Source of the DNA: a virus
Strand: one strand, 5' to 3'
DNA: 27,934 bases
IMG/VR virus record: IMGVR_UViG_3300044695_004691
Span: 1-27,934 of that record
Of this stretch, positions 20,475 through 27,934 are shown piece by piece. Position numbers and translations under genes: made by a program. Each line of letters opens with the position of its first letter. The stretch's first letter is position 1. Under the pieces are notes generated by a model, which worked only from the letters and a program-made list of their open reading frames with translations, did not search any database and was not told the DNA's origin.

Positions 20475-20687
20475 ATGAAAACTTTAAGGCTTAAGTGCGC
20501 TACATGTGGTGGACCTAAGTTTATTGGGTCTCCGTATTATGCACATGGCTCTTATTATGTAGACATTACATGTGTTGTATGTAGTCATTCAAAAGATATT
20601 GAACTTGATAAGCTCAATAAGTTTTTAGAAAAGCTAAAGCAAGAAAAGGTGGTTATTAATGATAACAAAAAAACCAGTTCTGAATAA
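20475..20687 (+). CDS. Small zinc ribbon protein
   Basis: This 70-aa protein has two C-x-x-C knuckles, C8-A-T-C11 and C33-V-V-C36, about 21 residues apart with beta-type sequence between (Y-Y-V-D-I-T), the form of a zinc ribbon. The last 30 residues are a charged Lys/Glu helix. It starts one base after the metallophosphoesterase stop and its 3' end overlaps the MerR-like gene by 29 bases. Zinc ribbons of this size commonly bind nucleic acid or act as adaptors to polymerases; which applies here cannot be told. Confidence 0.75.
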   Translation: MKTLRLKCATCGGPKFIGSPYYAHGSYYVDITCVVCSHSKDIELDKLNKFLEKLKQEKVVINDNKKTSSE

Positions 20688-21093
20688 GTTTTATAAATAT
20701 TCAGATACAATCGTCAAGATAAAGAAAATCAGTAAATCATCAAATAAGATTTTTGCTGAGCGGATTGATAATGGCGAAGCAATCCTGATACCATACGAGC
20801 AGTGCGAAATATTACTCATTCGCTTGTATACTGTCGGAGAGGTCGCCAAGATTGTAGAAAAAAGATCTGATACTCTAAGAAAGTATGAGAAAAAGAATTT
20901 GATACCATCACCAAATAAATTTGGTGAGAAGTATCAAAGTTACCAAAGTTGGCGATACTATGAAGAATCGGACATTTATGAGATGATTGAATTCTTCAAT
21001 GATAGAACCCCCGGTAGACCAGTACAAAAAAACAACATTGATTTAAACTCAAAAATTAAATCAATTCAAGAGAAAGTAAAATTAAAATTCTGA
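20659..21093 (+). CDS. MerR-like winged-helix DNA-binding protein
   Basis: This 144-aa protein has two parts. Residues 1-55 form a small beta-type domain with many Lys (Y-S-D-T-I-V-K-I-K-K-I). Residues about 56-125 form a MerR-like winged helix: L-Y-T-V-G-E-V-A-K-I-V-E-K-R-S-D-T-L-R-K-Y-E, then L-I-P-S-P and W-R-Y-Y-E-E-S-D-I-Y-E-M, the recognition helix, wing and second helix of that fold. The usual long dimerising coiled coil is absent, as in excisionase-like or phage regulatory proteins. It begins inside the zinc ribbon gene, with AAGGTGG about eight bases upstream. It could be a phage transcription regulator or an architectural protein. Confidence 0.75.
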   Translation: MITKKPVLNKFYKYSDTIVKIKKISKSSNKIFAERIDNGEAILIPYEQCEILLIRLYTVGEVAKIVEKRSDTLRKYEKKNLIPSPNKFGEKYQSYQSWRYYEESDIYEMIEFFNDRTPGRPVQKNNIDLNSKIKSIQEKVKLKF

Positions 21094-21100
21094 GGTAATT

Positions 21101-21304
21101 ATGGCAGAAGATAAAGTTGAAATTTGGGCATCCCTTGGTATTACCAAGAACCTCGGCAATTATGAATCGCTGAGACTCGATGCAGGAGCAAAGACAATGG
21201 CAGTATCATTGGAAGATGAAAGTGCTTGGAAGAAGCTTTGGGATGCAATTGATATGCAGATCGAAGCGAAACTAAAAGAACTGGATGATGGAACTTCTAA
21301 GTAA
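21101..21304 (+). CDS. Small conserved-looking protein of unknown function
   Basis: This 67-aa acidic protein starts seven bases after the MerR-like gene, with TGAGGTAATT as a weak ribosome binding site. The N-terminal half reads I-W-A-S-L-G-I-T-K-N-L-G-N-Y-E-S-L-R-L-D-A-G, a pattern I associate with short unnamed proteins of actinobacteriophages. The C-terminal half is a charged helix. No catalytic or metal-binding motif is visible. Its 3' end overlaps the WhiB-like gene by 20 bases. Confidence 0.7.
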   Translation: MAEDKVEIWASLGITKNLGNYESLRLDAGAKTMAVSLEDESAWKKLWDAIDMQIEAKLKELDDGTSK

Positions 21305-21587
21305 TTGGAAAGACGAAGCAGTTTGTGCATCTGATACCAATTCATCAAAATGGGTTTCATACAACCTTGATGATATTGATTATGCAAAAAAAGGGTGTGC
21401 AAAATGCAATGTAAGAAAAGAATGCCTGATAATGGCATTCAAGAATGATTCATTTATTGGAGTGGTAGCAGGTATATCAGAGTATGATTACCTGCTACAC
21501 TCTTGGAAGAAAGTAACAGAAGAAGATGAAAGCAACTGGAGAACAGACGATTCTATATTTCCAGGATTGTTGCAAAAAATACAATAA
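21285..21587 (+). CDS. WhiB-family iron-sulfur transcription factor homologue
   Basis: This 100-aa protein has the four-cysteine WhiB pattern: C14, then C38-A-K-C41 and C47 (C-x23-C-x2-C-x5-C). It keeps the N-terminal W-K-D-E-A-V-C, the context N-V-R-K-E-C-L, and a G-V-V-A-G-I-S-E-Y-D turn equivalent to the G-[VI]-W-G-G-x-[ST] of the family. WhiB proteins hold a 4Fe-4S cluster and bind the primary sigma factor; they are essentially confined to Actinobacteria and their phages. The second Trp-Gly of the turn is replaced here and the basic C-terminal tail is missing, replaced by an acidic end. It may therefore act on sigma factor rather than on DNA, for example to inhibit or redirect host transcription. 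Confidence 0.85.
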   Translation: MMELLSNWKDEAVCASDTNSSKWVSYNLDDIDYAKKGCAKCNVRKECLIMAFKNDSFIGVVAGISEYDYLLHSWKKVTEEDESNWRTDDSIFPGLLQKIQ

Positions 21588-21834
21588 ACTATTCATTCCG
21601 GATTCTCCACGACAAGAACCAGTTGCAAAAGCAATATCTGAATTCTATGAATCAGACCTTTTGTTTAAGGCAGTTGAATCTTTTGTCAAGGCAAGAACCG
21701 GCCCTGTTTTAGTGTTTGATTTTGCAATTGAATCAAAAACATATATTGATAGAGTCCAATTTAATAACAAATCTGATATGCGCTTTAAAGAGATATTAGA
21801 TGAAACAAGAAAGAGAATGACAGATGAATTATGA
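21526..21834 (+). CDS. Unknown protein upstream of the helicase
   Basis: This 102-aa protein starts with an ATG preceded by GAAGAAG, inside the WhiB-like gene (62-base overlap), and its end overlaps the helicase gene by 11 bases. The N-terminus contains D-C-C-K-K-Y-N-K-L-F-I-P, perhaps a degraded Cys knuckle. A hydrophobic strand P-V-L-V-F-D-F-A-I-E follows near residue 60, and a charged helical C-terminus closes it. The tight overlaps on both sides support translation. No family is recognised; a helicase accessory or loader role is possible only from position. Confidence 0.6.
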   Translation: MKATGEQTILYFQDCCKKYNKLFIPDSPRQEPVAKAISEFYESDLLFKAVESFVKARTGPVLVFDFAIESKTYIDRVQFNNKSDMRFKEILDETRKRMTDEL

Positions 21835-23041
21835 GTTAAGAGTTATTAACTCGTTGCTTAATTCTGGCAATTATGTAGAGGCTGTAAATGATGGCATTGA
21901 AAATGTCTTCATTGAATACCGTGATATTTGGAACTTTATTATTCAGCACTATGATGAACATAAAAAGACTCCATCTAAGGATACTGTAAAACACCATTAT
22001 CCTGACTTTGAATTTATCAATACCCCTGAACCTCTTTCTTATTACTTGATTGAGGCTAAGAAAGAATCACTTTCTTATCAGACACGGCAAATTATCTCTA
22101 AAGCTAATAACATGCTTAAAGATATGGGGCCAAAAGAAGCGATGGCATATCTAATGCAATCAACATCGCAACTCTATAAATTCTCCAGCAGTCTAAAAGA
22201 TACTGACTTAGTAGGTGAATGGAAAGACAGAGCTGGAGATTTGCGTGAGAGATCAATGCAGGAGGCTAGGGATATCCCTGGTATTCCAAGTGGCATTAGT
22301 GTCCTTGATAAATCATTTGGTGGTTGGCAACCGGGAGACTTTGTTATCCTTTTAGGATGGACAGGTGTTGGTAAAAGTTTTATTGCTCGCTTATTCGCTG
22401 CTAATGCGTGGAGGGCTGGCTATAGACCGCTTATCATTTCATTGGAAATGAATAAACAGCAAGAAGGACAGCGACTTGATACATTGTTAAACAATGGAGA
22501 AGGTCACTTTACAAATACCGATCTTGTTAAGGCTAACCGAGGAATCGTTGACGGATATGAGAAATGGGCTGAGAAGACATTTGAAGGTAAGCATCCAATT
22601 TATTTGGTTACTTCAGAAGGTCTTGAGACTGCTGACCAGAATATGGTTCAAGCAAAGATTGACCAGTATCGCCCTGACATGGTAATCCTTGACTATCATG
22701 GCTTGTTTGACGATGCAAGTGGTGCAAAAACTGAAACAGAAAAAGCCAAGAACTTGTCTAAAGCATTCAAGCGTATTGCTGTTAAGAATGGTATTCCAAT
22801 CATTGACGTAGCAGCAGTAACAATGAATGAAGGTCATGCGGAAAGACCGCCTGAACTTGAAGAAGTTGCATGGAGTAAGCAATTGGCTTATGACGCTGAC
22901 TTAGTGTTAGCAATTCACCGTGAATACAATTCAGATGTATTCCAAGTAGTATCAAGAAAAGTAAGAAGATCAACACATTTTGGTTTCTATCTAAGATGGA
23001 ACCTTGAAACAGGAAAGTGGAATGAAGAATGGGAGCTATAA
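21824..23041 (+). CDS. DnaB-like replicative helicase
   Basis: This 405-aa protein has an N-terminal helical domain (about 1-130) and a C-terminal RecA-like ATPase. Visible motifs are P-S-G-I-S-V-L-D-K-S-F-G-G-W-Q-P-G-D-F ahead of the Walker A box G178-W-T-G-V-G-K184-S185, S-L-E-M-N-K (helicase H1a-like) and Walker B M-V-I-L-D290-Y. A Q-L-A-Y-D-A-D-L-V-L segment and an R-K-V-R-R motif follow. It should unwind DNA ahead of the phage fork as a hexamer and partner the primase two genes downstream. At 405 aa it is a little shorter than bacterial DnaB. Its stop overlaps the next ATG in a TAATG. Confidence 0.92.
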   Translation: MNYELRVINSLLNSGNYVEAVNDGIENVFIEYRDIWNFIIQHYDEHKKTPSKDTVKHHYPDFEFINTPEPLSYYLIEAKKESLSYQTRQIISKANNMLKDMGPKEAMAYLMQSTSQLYKFSSSLKDTDLVGEWKDRAGDLRERSMQEARDIPGIPSGISVLDKSFGGWQPGDFVILLGWTGVGKSFIARLFAANAWRAGYRPLIISLEMNKQQEGQRLDTLLNNGEGHFTNTDLVKANRGIVDGYEKWAEKTFEGKHPIYLVTSEGLETADQNMVQAKIDQYRPDMVILDYHGLFDDASGAKTETEKAKNLSKAFKRIAVKNGIPIIDVAAVTMNEGHAERPPELEEVAWSKQLAYDADLVLAIHREYNSDVFQVVSRKVRRSTHFGFYLRWNLETGKWNEEWEL

Positions 23042-23217
23042 TGCCTAAGAAGTTTGTCGCTGGCGAAGCACAGGACATTGAGACAATTGTAAGATTAAGA
23101 AAGTGGATAGAGGATGAGTGGAAGCAAGTACACGGAAACTTTACCAAGACTAATTTAACAACAGACTACGATGCGCAATCAAACATTTTCAAATTCAAAC
23201 TATACTTCATCAAGTAA
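23041..23217 (+). CDS. Small unknown protein between helicase and primase
   Basis: The ATG at 23041 sits in a TAATG overlap with the helicase stop and gives 58 aa; an upstream in-frame ATG at 23029 is less likely. The sequence has a helical, charged middle (I-V-R-L-R-K-W-I-E-D-E-W-K-Q-V-H) and overlaps the primase gene by 47 bases. No motif is recognised. Coupling with the helicase suggests a replication accessory protein. Confidence 0.6.
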   Translation: MPKKFVAGEAQDIETIVRLRKWIEDEWKQVHGNFTKTNLTTDYDAQSNIFKFKLYFIK

Positions 23218-24115
23218 TATTGAACGAAATATTAGGGAGTTATTTGATAACTACAACATTCATATCCATTCAGAGGGTATGAATGAAGTAAACATCTTTT
23301 GCCCCTTCCATAAGAATCTTCATAGTCCGGCTTTCTACATTAATATTAAGACTGGCTTATGGCAATGCTTTAACCCCTCATGCGGTAAGAAAGGTAACTT
23401 TAGACAACTCTATAAGCAAGTTACTGGTAAGCCGTTTACAAAGGATATAAAGCTCGACCATCAAGCTCTTCAGAATACTATTGACAGAGATCTGAACTAT
23501 GAAGAGGGGGAGAAAGACCAACTGAATATTTCCGATGTTGAAATAGACTATGACAATCAGGACATGTTATCTAATCTGATAACACTTTCCGAGAGAGGCC
23601 TAGAATACGAAACCTTGGAGACATTTGAAGTTGGTTATTCAATGCCAAAAGAAAGAGTTGTTATTCCCGTTAGGGATGCACAATATAAGTTAGTTGGCTT
23701 TATTGGTCGTGCAGTAAAAAGCGAACAAGAGCCAAGATACTTATACAACAAAGGCTTTAAAAGAGCCGATGTATTATTTAATATTCAGAATGCTAAATCG
23801 TATAACTCATGCATAATTGTGGAAGGCAGTATTGATGCGATGTTCATTCATCAGGCTGGATTCCCCAATGTCGTTGCTACACTTGGCTCAAGAGTGTCGG
23901 AATACCAATATAAATTGATGAGAAGATACTTTGATTCAATCACTATATTTTCTGACAATGATGCTGCTGGTGAGCAGATGAAACATGATATACTCAATGC
24001 GTGTAGTGGTAAAGAACTCTACACAGTGGAATTGCCTGCGGACAAAAAGGATGCAGGAGAGATGACACAAGAAGAAATAATAAATACATTAACAAACAAA
24101 AAAATACATATATAA
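23171..24115 (+). CDS. DnaG-like DNA primase
   Basis: This 314-aa protein has an N-terminal CHC2-type zinc finger: C44-P-F-H47 with H-S-P-A-F-Y, then W-Q-C66-F-N-P-S-C71-G-K-K-G-N. It has a TOPRIM domain with I-V-E218-G-S-I-D-A-M-F and F-S-D262-N-D264-A-A-G, the acidic residues that hold metal. The R-V-V-I-P-V-R-D and V-G-F-I-G-R-A segments match the strands before TOPRIM. At about half the length of bacterial DnaG it lacks a separate C-terminal helicase-binding domain. The ATG at 23171 lies within the preceding gene and has no clear ribosome binding site, so the start could be a little downstream. It should prime for the DnaE-type polymerase. Confidence 0.9.
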   Translation: MRNQTFSNSNYTSSSNIERNIRELFDNYNIHIHSEGMNEVNIFCPFHKNLHSPAFYINIKTGLWQCFNPSCGKKGNFRQLYKQVTGKPFTKDIKLDHQALQNTIDRDLNYEEGEKDQLNISDVEIDYDNQDMLSNLITLSERGLEYETLETFEVGYSMPKERVVIPVRDAQYKLVGFIGRAVKSEQEPRYLYNKGFKRADVLFNIQNAKSYNSCIIVEGSIDAMFIHQAGFPNVVATLGSRVSEYQYKLMRRYFDSITIFSDNDAAGEQMKHDILNACSGKELYTVELPADKKDAGEMTQEEIINTLTNKKIHI

Positions 24116-24129
24116 GGAAGGTATAAACA

Positions 24130-24777
24130 ATGTTTAAATCAGTAAAAACACTATCAGAGTTAGAAAAGTCAGTTGCACCAGCACAAGGAGCAAACAAGAC
24201 TGGTACTAAGAAGTACCTAACTATCCAATCAGGAGAATCCATTAAGGTTCGCTTCCGTCAGGAACTTACCGAAGATGCTAAGAACTACGATGAGAAGTTC
24301 GGAACAGGCATTATGGTTCCCGTTATTACATCCCCAATTAACTGGAAGTGGCGAGCAGCTTCAACTTCCGGAATTGAGAAGTTCGGATTCCGTTGCTGGG
24401 GTTCAGAGCAAGTTTACAAGGATAAGGCTTGGAAGCCTAAGACTCACTTAGTCATCAATGTTGCAGTTGAGGTTGAGCCGGGAGTTTGGGAACCACGCAT
24501 TATTGACACAACATTTAATCAGCGCCATATTGGTGCAATCTTGATTGAATACGCAAAGGAATTTGGTAGCATTACCGATAGAGAGTACAAGTATTCTCGT
24601 ACAGGTTCGGGTGCTTCAGATACCAACTATAGCCTTATTCCATTGAGTGTTTCAGAAACACCAAAGGATATTGCAGAATTGCCGATGCATGATCTTGACA
24701 ATGTATATTTGACATTGCCATACGATAAGCAAGAGCGTTTTTTCACCACTGGTGAAATTTCAAAAGACGAGTGGTAA
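24130..24777 (+). CDS. Probable single-stranded DNA-binding protein
   Basis: This 215-aa protein has an excellent ribosome binding site (AAGGAAGG, about eight bases before the ATG), so it is probably abundant. The sequence is beta-rich with many aromatic and basic residues (W-K-W-R-A-A, F-R-C-W-G, K-Y-S-R-T-G-S-G), as in OB-fold phage single-stranded DNA-binding proteins. The end is short and acidic with an aromatic (S-K-D-E-W), like the protein-interaction tails of that group. Neighbours are primase, helicase and polymerase genes. The usual gp32 zinc motif is absent. No ordered family motif clinches it, so it is a context-supported call. Confidence 0.65.
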   Translation: MFKSVKTLSELEKSVAPAQGANKTGTKKYLTIQSGESIKVRFRQELTEDAKNYDEKFGTGIMVPVITSPINWKWRAASTSGIEKFGFRCWGSEQVYKDKAWKPKTHLVINVAVEVEPGVWEPRIIDTTFNQRHIGAILIEYAKEFGSITDREYKYSRTGSGASDTNYSLIPLSVSETPKDIAELPMHDLDNVYLTLPYDKQERFFTTGEISKDEW

Positions 24778-24793
24778 ATAACAGAAAGTGATG

Positions 24794-24830
24794 CAGGGGA
24801 GGGGTAAAAGCCTCCCCTGTTCCTTATTTA
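24794..24830 (+). terminator. Terminator-like hairpin after the ssDNA-binding gene
   Basis: CAGGGGAGG (24794-24802) and CCTCCCCTG (24811-24819) pair over nine base pairs, mostly G-C, around an eight-base loop. A weak T-rich tail follows (TTCCTTATTTAT), so termination may be partial. It lies in the 54-base gap before the nucleotidase gene. It would allow high expression of the ssDNA-binding gene with less of the downstream polymerase. Confidence 0.65.
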
Positions 24831-24831
24831 T

Positions 24832-25368
24832 ATGACAAAAAATATAGCATTAGATTTAGATGGTGTAATCGCAGACATTGGTGGTGCGATAGAAGAGTCT
24901 TTAGTCAATCAATACGGTTTTGCGAAGAATGACTATGACTATACAAAATGGTTAACAACACATCATGATTGTGAATTATCAAATGAGATGATGGGCACAA
25001 GTGTTTTCTGGAAAAACCTTAAGCCTTTTGAAGATGCTTGGCATCAAGTTAACGACTGGTTTAGCAGAGGATACGATGTTTATATCGTCACTGCAAGAAG
25101 AGCAGAAGCCTCTATGAGTGTCACTCAACAATGGCTTGATGAATGGAAGATTAATACAATGATTCCAATTTTCTGCAAGATGGGTGAAAAACATCATGTG
25201 ATTAAAGAAATCAATCCATTGTTTATGGTTGAAGATAACCCTAATGAAGTAAAAACTTTATTAGATGAAGGCGTGAACGCTTATCTTAGAAGAGCATGGT
25301 ACAATGAGCCATATTGGGAAGAGCTTCCAACAATTGGAAGCCTATTAGAATTGAAGATAGATGACTGA
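24832..25368 (+). CDS. HAD-family 5'(3')-deoxyribonucleotidase-like phosphatase
   Basis: This 178-aa protein opens with the HAD signature A-L-D8-L-D10-G-V-I-A-D; D8 is the expected nucleophile and D10 the acid/base. Motif II is V-T87-A-R-R, motif III is K116 in C-K-M-G-E-K, and motif IV is V-E134-D135-N-P. The set and the length match NT5C-type nucleotidases found in phages. It would dephosphorylate deoxynucleoside monophosphates and help balance nucleotide pools. The ATG at 24832 has no Shine-Dalgarno sequence, only a T-rich stretch and the hairpin; the motif at residue 8 leaves no room for a later start. The last eight bases overlap the polymerase gene. Confidence 0.85.
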   Translation: MTKNIALDLDGVIADIGGAIEESLVNQYGFAKNDYDYTKWLTTHHDCELSNEMMGTSVFWKNLKPFEDAWHQVNDWFSRGYDVYIVTARRAEASMSVTQQWLDEWKINTMIPIFCKMGEKHHVIKEINPLFMVEDNPNEVKTLLDEGVNAYLRRAWYNEPYWEELPTIGSLLELKIDD

Positions 25369-27934
25369 TTTCGTACATTTACATTGCCATTCAGAGTATT
25401 CATTGCTCGATGGAATGTCTACTCCAGAGGAGATTGCTAGAACATCTAGCCGTAATGGGCAGTACGCAACTGCTATCACCGATCATGGAACAATGGGCGG
25501 TGTTTTAAAGTTTCAAGATGCTTGCGATAAGCAAAATGTAAAACCTGTATTTGGCATTGAAGCATACTTTGTCCCATCTGTTAATTCAGACGGTGACGGT
25601 AAGCATGAGAGATATCACCTTATTCTTTTGGCTAAGAATAATGAAGGCCTTCAGAAGTTATTCAAGGCTTCAAGAACTGGCTGGACAGATAACTTCTACT
25701 ACAAGCCAAGAATGGACTTTGATCTTCTTGAGAGTCTTGTAGATGATGACATTGTTGCATTGTCAGGATGCATGGGTAGTGCTATTTCAAAGGCTATTGA
25801 CAATAAGAATTATGCAAGAGCAGAGCAGTTATCAGAGCGTTTTATTAAAATCTTTAAGGATGATTTTTACTTTGAGATACAAGCTTGGAATCCTAAGCAC
25901 ATCAATGATGGTTTAATTAATCTTGCTGAACATTTTGGGAAAAAGGTTGTTGCTACTGCTGATTGCCATTTCCCAACACATGAAGATAGAGGCTGTGAAG
26001 AAGTCCTTCTAATGGTTTCTCAGTACCCAAGTATGGGTGCAGCAGAGGAAAGATTGGCTAAAGAAAATAGCGCAATCATTAACGACCCTAGCGCGTCTGT
26101 TGTGGACAAGATTAATAAGATGTATCCAAATCGCTCATTGCGATTTGACGAGATTAATCCATATGTCGCAGATGCCGATACTGTTTACAGTTGGTTTCAG
26201 GATGCCGGATATTCAAATGTATCTTTCTTGGAGAATACAATTGAAGTAGCAGAGAAGTGTTCAGCAAGAGTTGAGAAGAGAAAGAATCTTCTTCCAAAGT
26301 ATTCTAAGTTATTTAACTCTGACGATTACCTTCGTGAGATTACTGAATTTGAATTACAAAGCAGAGGGCTTGGTGAAGAGTACAAGGCAAGATTAGAAGA
26401 AGAACTTTCAATCATTAAGCAACTTGGGTTTTCTGATTACTTCTTAATCGTTTGGGACTTGGTTAAATGGGCTGACCAAAATAACATTGGTCGTGGTACT
26501 GGTCGTGGTTCTGTCGGAGGAAGTATCTTGGCCTATCTTTTAGATATTTCTAAGGTTGACCCTATTAAGTACAGCCTCCTCTTTGCCCGATTTATTAACC
26601 CTGACCGTAATGACTACCCTGACATTGACTTAGACTTTGAAGACAAGCGTAGAGGTGAGGTTAGAAACTATCTTCGTGATAGATGGGGACATGACAAGGT
26701 AGCTGCTATTACAACTTATGGAACATACAAGCCTAAGTCTGCTGTTAAAGATGTGTCCAGAGTTTATCAAGTTCCATTCCAAGAGATTAACGCAATCACT
26801 CCATACTTTGAGACACTTGAAGAACTTGAAACATCAGATAAAGGAAAGATCTTCTGTAAGAAGTATCCCGATGTTGCAAACTTGTCAAAGAGATTAGAAG
26901 GTCGTATTCGCAATGCTGGCATTCATGCTGCTGGGATGGTTGTGTCATCAATTCCGCTGACTGATGTGTGCCCAGTAGAATCTAGAAAAGATGTTAATGC
27001 TGGTGTACGATCTGTCGTTACAGCATTTGACATGGAAGACGCTGAAGCAGTCGGTCTAATTAAGATTGACGTATTGGGCCTTAAAACTGTATCAGTCATT
27101 AAAGACTGCATTGCAAAGATTAAAGAAAGAACAGGAAAAGATGTTACAGAGGAATCTCTTGAACTCGGTGATAGCCTTGTATACAAGAATATTGCAGAAG
27201 GTAATACCGTTGGCGTATTTCAAACTGATGCCGCTGCTTACAGGAATCTTATTGAACGAATGGGCGTTGATAATTTCAATGACTTGGTTGTTAGCAACGC
27301 TCTAGTTCGCCCTGGCGCTTTGCTTTCACAGGGCAAGACTTATATTGAATGCAAAAAGGGGGAGAAGAAGCCTAAGTACCCCCATCCAATCGTAGAAGAT
27401 ATTCTTCGTGAGACATACGGTACAGTTATCTTTCAGGAACAGCTTATGCAAATGGCTGTACTCATTGCTGACTTTACATGGTCAGAGGCTGACAAACTTC
27501 GTAAGATTATTGGTAAGAAGCGTGATGCTGCCGGATTTGATGAGTATAAAGAGAAGTTCGTAAATAACAAGTACATTACAAGAGAGAAGGCTGAGAAGAT
27601 CTGGGCTGACTTTGAATTAGCCGCCTTGTATATGTTTAACAAATCTCATGCCGTTGCTTACTCAATGCTCTCGTATCAGACAATGTGGTTAAAGACTTAT
27701 TACCCTCTTGAGTTCGTATGGTCATTGCTATATAACGAGGACTCAACAGATAAGATTACTGCTTATCTTATGGATGCTCAACGACTTGGGGTTAAGGTTC
27801 TTCCTCCTGATATCAATGAGTCAGATGAATACTTTACTATCGGTCATGAAGATGGAGAAGAGGGTATTAGATTCGGTCTGAGTAATGTTCAAGCTTGCGG
27901 TAGAACTGCCATTGATGAGATTGTCTCTAAGCGA
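25361..27934 (+). CDS. dnaE: DNA polymerase III alpha (DnaE-type), 5' part, runs off the window
   Basis: The frame runs from ATG 25361 (overlapping the nucleotidase stop) to the last base with no stop, 858 codons so far; full DnaE is about 1100-1200. The PHP domain starts F-V-H-L-H-C-H-S-E-Y-S-L-L-D-G and retains the metal-site positions known from Mycobacterium DnaE1 (H8, H10, D17, H42, E67, H86, C137, D201, H203), so a proofreading exonuclease is likely. The polymerase core shows G-R-G-T-G-R-G-S-V-G-G-S near residue 375 and P-D-I-D-L-D-F (420-426, catalytic aspartates). It also has K-I-D570-V-L-G-L, the third aspartate. A typical F-N-K-S-H-A-V-A-Y-S segment follows near residue 760. It would be the replicative polymerase of the phage, used with the helicase and primase upstream. 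The tau-binding C-terminus is outside the window. Confidence 0.95.
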   Translation, partial: MTDFVHLHCHSEYSLLDGMSTPEEIARTSSRNGQYATAITDHGTMGGVLKFQDACDKQNVKPVFGIEAYFVPSVNSDGDGKHERYHLILLAKNNEGLQKLFKASRTGWTDNFYYKPRMDFDLLESLVDDDIVALSGCMGSAISKAIDNKNYARAEQLSERFIKIFKDDFYFEIQAWNPKHINDGLINLAEHFGKKVVATADCHFPTHEDRGCEEVLLMVSQYPSMGAAEERLAKENSAIINDPSASVVDKINKMYPNRSLRFDEINPYVADADTVYSWFQDAGYSNVSFLENTIEVAEKCSARVEKRKNLLPKYSKLFNSDDYLREITEFELQSRGLGEEYKARLEEELSIIKQLGFSDYFLIVWDLVKWADQNNIGRGTGRGSVGGSILAYLLDISKVDPIKYSLLFARFINPDRNDYPDIDLDFEDKRRGEVRNYLRDRWGHDKVAAITTYGTYKPKSAVKDVSRVYQVPFQEINAITPYFETLEELETSDKGKIFCKKYPDVANLSKRLEGRIRNAGIHAAGMVVSSIPLTDVCPVESRKDVNAGVRSVVTAFDMEDAEAVGLIKIDVLGLKTVSVIKDCIAKIKERTGKDVTEESLELGDSLVYKNIAEGNTVGVFQTDAAAYRNLIERMGVDNFNDLVVSNALVRPGALLSQGKTYIECKKGEKKPKYPHPIVEDILRETYGTVIFQEQLMQMAVLIADFTWSEADKLRKIIGKKRDAAGFDEYKEKFVNNKYITREKAEKIWADFELAALYMFNKSHAVAYSMLSYQTMWLKTYYPLEFVWSLLYNEDSTDKITAYLMDAQRLGVKVLPPDINESDEYFTIGHEDGEEGIRFGLSNVQACGRTAIDEIVSKR

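Follow-up and report, generated by a model that had tools for sequence, protein, structure and literature searches.

Does a phage-borne WhiB-like (Wbl) protein whose characteristic turn lacks the tryptophan still dock on the host sigma factor? The question is raised by P0001, encoded next to the replication genes in a viral stretch of 27,934 nucleotides (IMG/VR record IMGVR_UViG_3300044695_004691), here called the window (Table 1). A preliminary description of this gene had proposed that its product binds the host sigma factor without contacting DNA, acting as a switch for host transcription.

Table 1. Features of the window, in order of position, with the evidence on which each assignment is based.
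Feature	Position	Strand	Basis or remark
Tape measure protein, 3335 aa	1254..11261		Short transglycosylase match near residue 1962
Tail genes, after the tape measure gene	up to 18133		
Protein of 70 aa with two C-x2-C pairs, zinc-ribbon-like by eye	20475..20687		Zero family matches over the Pfam cut-off; upstream of the MerR-type gene in all reaching loci examined
MerR-type HTH protein, upstream of Wbl	20659..21093	+	Beside Wbl in 44/44 distinct loci
Small phrog_5189 protein, directly upstream, 20-base overlap with Wbl ORF	21101..21304	+	44/44
Wbl-homologous protein P0001, 100 aa	21285..21587	+	ORF, Pfam, model
W8, equivalent to WhiB1 W3	21306..21308	+	Kept in 44/44 lineage rows
Cysteines C14, C38, C41, C47	21324..21425 (codons 21324-21326, 21396-21398, 21405-21407, 21423-21425)	+	44/44
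W23-V24, at WhiB1 F17-F18 positions	21351..21356	+	Alignment
G-V-V-A-G turn (residues 59-63), V61 at the place of WhiB1 W60	21459..21473	+	Alignment
Start of helix 4, I-S-E-Y-D-Y ... W74	21474..21506	+	Alignment, model
3' end of Wbl gene, overlapping start of next gene in another frame	21526..21587	+	ORFs
Gene ov, downstream	21526..21834	+	44/44; without family match
Replication genes: DnaB helicase, primase, SSB, NT5C-like phosphatase, DNA polymerase III alpha (cut by the window end)	21824..27934	+	Pfam/PHROGs
NT5C-like nucleotidase/phosphatase, between SSB and polymerase	24832..25368		

Identity, fold and host of the window protein

P0001 is a genuine Wbl homologue, as the preliminary description had it. 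It matches the Pfam family Whib (PF02467) with an E-value of 1.6e-10 and 41.8 bits, above the curated cut-off of 23.6, and is also matched by WhiB families in PHROGs; a search of NCBIfam with P0001 gave zero matches. The solved sequence closest to it is Streptomyces WhiB (E 7e-7), with WhiB1 giving a weaker match (0.075). An AlphaFold2 model based on a 102-row alignment reached a pLDDT of 91.4 and a pTM of 0.79 (a shallower input of 15 sequences, which gave a pLDDT of 49, was set aside). In a Foldseek search of the PDB with this model rows 1-15 are all Wbls, with no row reaching E <= 0.001, and VIA-align places model residues 7-76 on WhiB1 2-75 at 1.5 Å over 69 residues (Z 9.5), a coverage of mainly model residues 2-78, so that the fold result concerns the protein without its tail. 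In the fold alignments, P0001 is 29-34% identical to WhiB and WhiB1. The end points of the VIA-align superposition, together with the sequence alignments, set the register in which W8 corresponds to WhiB1 W3 and V61 to WhiB1 W60. By both profile and fold, P0001 lies inside the WhiB family, in a branch of its own (see below).

The four-cysteine cluster is intact, in agreement with the preliminary description, and its spacing, Cys14-x23-Cys38-x2-Cys41-x5-Cys47, fits the pattern C-Xn-C-X2-C-X5-C. Because this four-cysteine fold is kept, P0001 probably holds a [4Fe-4S] cluster. The gene is under purifying selection: for the part before the overlap with the next gene, dN/dS was 0.14-0.27 in 13 of 15 close pairs (two were not computable) and 0.08-0.20 in four further pairs, with dS above 1, near saturation, in several of them. 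A chance or false ORF was considered, and is ruled out by the Pfam Whib match and the dN/dS values.

The gene had also been taken as the best host indicator of the window, and an actinobacterial host is indeed well supported at the phylum level. Among 14 control genomes, only that of Corynebacterium glutamicum passed the Whib cut-off, and Deinobacterium chartae gave a match at a looser limit, below the cut-off. A genome scan for the lineage protein found six loci, none with the lineage turn, in records that we take, from their names, to belong to Actinomycetota. The best-ranked matches of the DnaB and the polymerase are Streptomyces phages, at less than 60% identity, although phages of Pseudomonas or Mycobacterium account for more of the matches of these two proteins. 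The GC content of the window is 36-42% (4-kb blocks, bases 1-24000). Wbls are reported to be exclusive to Actinobacteria (PMC6282962, PMC10245118), and a Wbl has been used as a marker of freshwater actinophages (PMC6802176, PMC10202952).

A phage lineage without the turn tryptophan

The turn motif of the Wbl family is given as G[I/V]W[G/A]G (PMC10245118), and the preliminary description had noted GVVAG in P0001 where G[VI]WGG is usual. This is correct for residues 59-63, but the alanine is a normal variant, since A and G are both admitted by the family motif (PMC10245118), and we rejected it as an aberrant feature; the turn departs from the motif at W only. With this W absent, P0001 is classed as a branch of Wbl homologues and not as a canonical Wbl.

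In order to find relatives, viral contigs were scanned with P0001 and then with growing alignments, which gave 9, 22 and 77 loci in turn. The 77 viral loci correspond to 44 distinct frames, with the turns GVNAG (23), GVIAG (9), GVVAG (7) and GVNGG (5), hence a consensus of G-V-[N/I/V]-[A/G]-G. W never occurs, a count (0/77) that is biased because one of the two scan patterns contained GV[NVI][AG]G; the motif-blind pattern is matched by 59 of the 77 loci, 13 of which match it alone. A separate scan blind to the turn, with a pattern that favours TGT/GAA codons, listed at least 120 loci. Among the matches listed there are 87 distinct Wbl domains, with W in 76, F or Y in 7 and N in 3 (one is unreadable); W, F or Y is thus present in 83 of the 86 readable listed domains, and the other three (L125, L220 and L239) are members of the lineage by sequence and by neighbours. 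In a tree calculated without the motif columns, a single branch with an SH-aLRT value of 99 separates the 44 lineage rows from the rest of the 102 Wbls. These rows represent 101 of 199 distinct domains plus the window protein, which stands for the identical locus L241; the tree was made by a quick method on 94 of 170 columns, without bootstrap, and the program flagged the long stem of the lineage. Judged by sequence, the GVVAG-type turn marks a phage branch of Wbl homologues. A0A6J5Q3A8, an uncultured Caudovirales phage protein deposited in BFVD under the generic name of WhiB-like iron-sulfur binding domain protein, is a full-length fold match to P0001 (TM 0.93, 44% identity over 99 columns) and probably a member of this lineage.

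Host Wbls were compared at the same position: 58 of 59 distinct ones, mostly the best-scoring matches of longer lists, carry W at the turn, and one carries R. When 80 genomes from a single actinobacterial phylum group were searched, only 42 yielded a Wbl. Arg takes the place of the turn Trp in two proteins, gp105 of Microbacterium phage Pumpernickel (L054, GTRAG) and a Streptomyces protein (L091, GIRGG), which to judge from their sequences are apparently separate losses of the same residue; the loss of Trp is therefore not unique to the phage lineage. Pumpernickel gp105 was considered as an independent copy, and was rejected as such because a scan for its relatives found none (it has R at position 61, and an uncertain alignment at position 23).

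The phage lineage shares the four-Cys pattern, W3 and the turn glycines with WhiB1, WhiB3, WhiB7 and Streptomyces WhiB, but differs from them in lacking the turn Trp, in the mostly aliphatic residue at the F18 position and in the mostly aromatic residues at the basic positions of helix 4. The sigma contact of WhiB1 is described as including V59, W60, W3, F17 and F18 (PMC7363131), and the WhiB3 residues F31, F32 and W76, equivalent to WhiB1 F17, F18 and W60, are each reported to abolish sigma-A4 binding in pull-downs when singly mutated to Ala (PMC10245118). In an alignment of the 44 lineage rows with 58 other Wbl rows, the W60 position holds N29/I8/V7 in the lineage versus W54/Y2/F1 and one gap in the others. 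The F18 position is L33/F6/V4/I1 (aromatic in 6/44, non-aromatic in 38/44) versus F43/Y14/P1, and the F17 position is W in 44/44 versus F in 55/58. Two helix-4 positions differ as well: at position 69 the lineage has F or Y in 34/44 rows and R in 6, versus R in 43/58 of the others, and at position 74 it has W in 39/44 versus R or K in 45/58. Given these two tallies, the common change in the C-terminal helix of the lineage is from basic to aromatic, and not to acidic. P0001 itself, compared with the sigma-A-binding classes of WhiB1/3/7 type, lacks the turn Trp (V61) and the F18 aromatic (V24), and has an aromatic residue at F17 (W23).

The residue missing from the turn is the W60 equivalent, and its WhiB3 counterpart, W76, is reported to be needed for sigma-A region 4 binding; the sequence thus speaks against docking of the ordinary kind on sigma. 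The non-aromatic residue at the F18 position of P0001 and of most of the lineage points in the same direction, against the sigma-binding part of the preliminary proposal, whereas its other part, the loss of DNA contact, is plausible.

Two observations count against a complete loss of docking. The W3 position is W in all 44 lineage rows, and part of the aromatic pocket remains because position 23 is Trp. In addition, sigma binding is the prior expectation for any Wbl, since in the Foldseek list every Wbl row with a partner in its title names sigma-A region 4 or RNA polymerase. Together with the kept Wbl fold, these points make up the case for the main alternative, by which P0001 would still hold sigma-A region 4 through a reshaped interface, with W23 in place of F17 and other aromatics, and would do so without touching DNA, little contact being expected once most of the basic positions of helix 4 are gone. 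We consider this somewhat unlikely: the W60 and F18 equivalents are lost, each of them reported essential in WhiB3 (PMC10245118), and N, I and V at position 61 amount to no common replacement. W23 was considered as a compensation specific to the loss of W, an idea weakened by ten non-lineage Wbl rows in which W23 occurs together with W61; a Trp at the F17 position is by itself not telling, as the pocket tolerates it there. The residues invariant in the 44 rows are the Cys ligands, W8, W23, S25, Y33, A34, K35, G59, V60, G63, S65 and E66.

The same phages also carry a second Wbl. In a PF02467 search of 26 records, all 12 of at least 59.5 kb have two matches over the cut-off, and each of the 14 shorter ones (15.5-54.1 kb) has a single match, with one extra match below the cut-off in G011. 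The second Wbl (P0002, P0003; L034-L038, L319-L325) is of the same family and in the same records as the lineage protein, but is located elsewhere in the record and keeps the turn Trp in 12/12, two of which have another residue in place of the final Gly. The second Wbls fall in several places of the tree, with five changes, two of them forced by starred branches; these Trp-bearing proteins are diverse, as if acquired more than once. A search of the 12 long records with the Sigma70_r4 profile gave zero matches.

The C-terminal tail and the gene block

The preliminary description had noted acidic sequence where a Wbl usually has a basic DNA-binding tail. The residues after the turn of P0001 do have a net charge of -4 (computed on the identical locus L241), but across the 44 distinct lineage frames the charge spans -5 to +6, and we rejected the idea that the acidic tail is the key change, since it is not a feature of the lineage. 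Bacterial members of the WhiB3 class are also described as lacking basic residues in that C-terminal region (PMC10245118).

The last ~20 codons of the window Wbl gene are shared with the next gene. Its start codon lies 61 bases before the Wbl end in 33 distinct frames, as in the window; five other frames overlap it with somewhat different starts, and in L311 the overlap is of ~20 bases. In L305, L306, L307, L315 and L316 only 15 residues follow the turn, with at most a few shared bases, and this sub-branch without the long overlap is a natural tail-less control. Across the 33 frames with the 61-base overlap, and by codon position of the next gene, the variation is 0.32/0.27/0.42 in the overlap and 0.26/0.14/0.51 beyond it, and that of the Wbl gene before the overlap is 0.25/0.23/0.51. 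The wobble sites of both frames are quieter in the overlap, with bootstrap intervals of -0.12 to -0.06 and -0.27 to -0.20 that treat the rows as independent, ignoring kinship. This suggests that both frames are read in the overlap, and thus that the make-up of the tail is partly set by the neighbour gene. The conserved N-W of the tail was considered as a Wbl signature and found unsafe, since the same bases encode T-G of the next gene; the short-tail group keeps the T/A-G of the next gene without that overlap.

The overlap also bears on a further possibility, that P0001 is a decaying Wbl copy without selected function, kept by the overlaps at its ends. In its favour, conservation of the Wbl gene is on the low side for the block (in L125, 39% identity with DnaB at 78%, although the small gene at 20475 does no better there, at 40%), and its tail overlaps the next gene. 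Against it, the 17 pairs for which dN/dS could be computed before the overlap gave 0.08-0.27, the Cys ligands and 11 further residues are invariant in 44 rows, and none of the 44 frames is interrupted inside the cysteine core. Decay is accordingly very improbable.

A role like that of the WhiB of mycobacteriophage TM4, which like P0001 and other actinophage Wbls is phage-borne, was also weighed. By analogy, P0001 could regulate host Wbl genes in a dominant-negative or competing manner, with the host's whiB promoters or partners as its targets. Repression of host whiB2 and exclusion of superinfection are reported for TM4 WhiB (PMC8612146, PMC11797047), and mild toxicity for overexpressed Amelie gp46 (PMC11797047). 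The TM4 mechanism, compared here from its description, is, however, reportedly binding to the whiB2 promoter (PMC11797047), and in the lineage the basic positions of helix 4 are mostly aromatic; moreover, the protein ends 15 residues after the turn in 5/44 frames, and such a role could fall to the second Wbl of the same phages. We regard it as quite improbable.

The gene order around the Wbl is highly conserved. DnaB lies downstream in 43 of the 44 distinct loci (L306 ends before DnaB), and the wider order of HNH, phosphoesterase, DnaB, primase, SSB and Pol III alpha is kept in the 20 loci examined, as far as each reaches, with a phosphoesterase match only 84 residues long in L024, L026, L030 and L031. 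Given the gene direction and the overlap, the Wbl and its neighbours would form one operon. Cluster-specific synteny of phage Wbl genes is described, and so are replication neighbours of whiB, in Microbacterium cluster EK (PMC8612146). The Streptomyces phages Cursive and BillNye (the latter of the Stanwilliamsviridae) have HNH, phosphoesterase, an HTH protein, a phrog_5189-like small protein homologous to that of the window (E 3.7e-6 and 3e-7), DnaB, primase, SSB and Pol III alpha in the same order, but no Wbl, whether from annotation or by profile search, separates the small gene from DnaB. Their downstream gene compared with ov gave E-values above 1, and Cursive has one Wbl elsewhere in its genome, with the turn GVWGG. 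A gain of the Wbl in the window's lineage and a loss in Cursive and BillNye both fit these data. The neighbourhood may hint at candidate partners of P0001, which is not the same as proof of a physical partner.

Possible role and implications

The best explanation, which we hold tentatively, is that P0001 is off standard sigma-A docking and works as a cluster-dependent protein-protein adaptor in the replication block, with the second Wbl doing the sigma work. The phage branch would keep the four-cysteine fold and probably the [4Fe-4S] cluster, and the face that canonical Wbls press on sigma-A region 4 would have been rebuilt, with Trp60 changed to Asn, Ile or Val, Phe18 to mostly aliphatic residues, Phe17 to Trp, and two basic positions of helix 4 to mostly aromatic ones. 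P0001 would then no longer dock on sigma-A in the manner of WhiB1, and the conserved S-E-[YFI]-[DE] and W74 patch would be the contact surface for another protein. This partner would most likely come from its own gene block, with the MerR-type protein, the ov protein and DnaB as candidates, and the second Wbl of these phages would do the ordinary sigma work. The bolder proposal that this Wbl has left transcription altogether, giving up sigma-A docking to become a cluster-dependent partner of the phage replication or early-gene machinery while the second Wbl keeps the sigma role, we consider unlikely.

Phage Wbls, their cluster-specific synteny, their replication neighbours and their use as host markers were already known from the sources consulted; what may be new is the lineage without the turn Trp, as no such lineage was found described in the parts of the literature consulted. 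The use of whiB as an actinobacterial host marker is unaffected, but caution is called for in that a 'whiB' in a phage is not automatically a sigma-binding host regulator. In these phages nature provides a lineage without a sigma-binding residue, so that Wbl function independent of sigma becomes open to experiment, and the two Wbls per phage offer a built-in experimental control.
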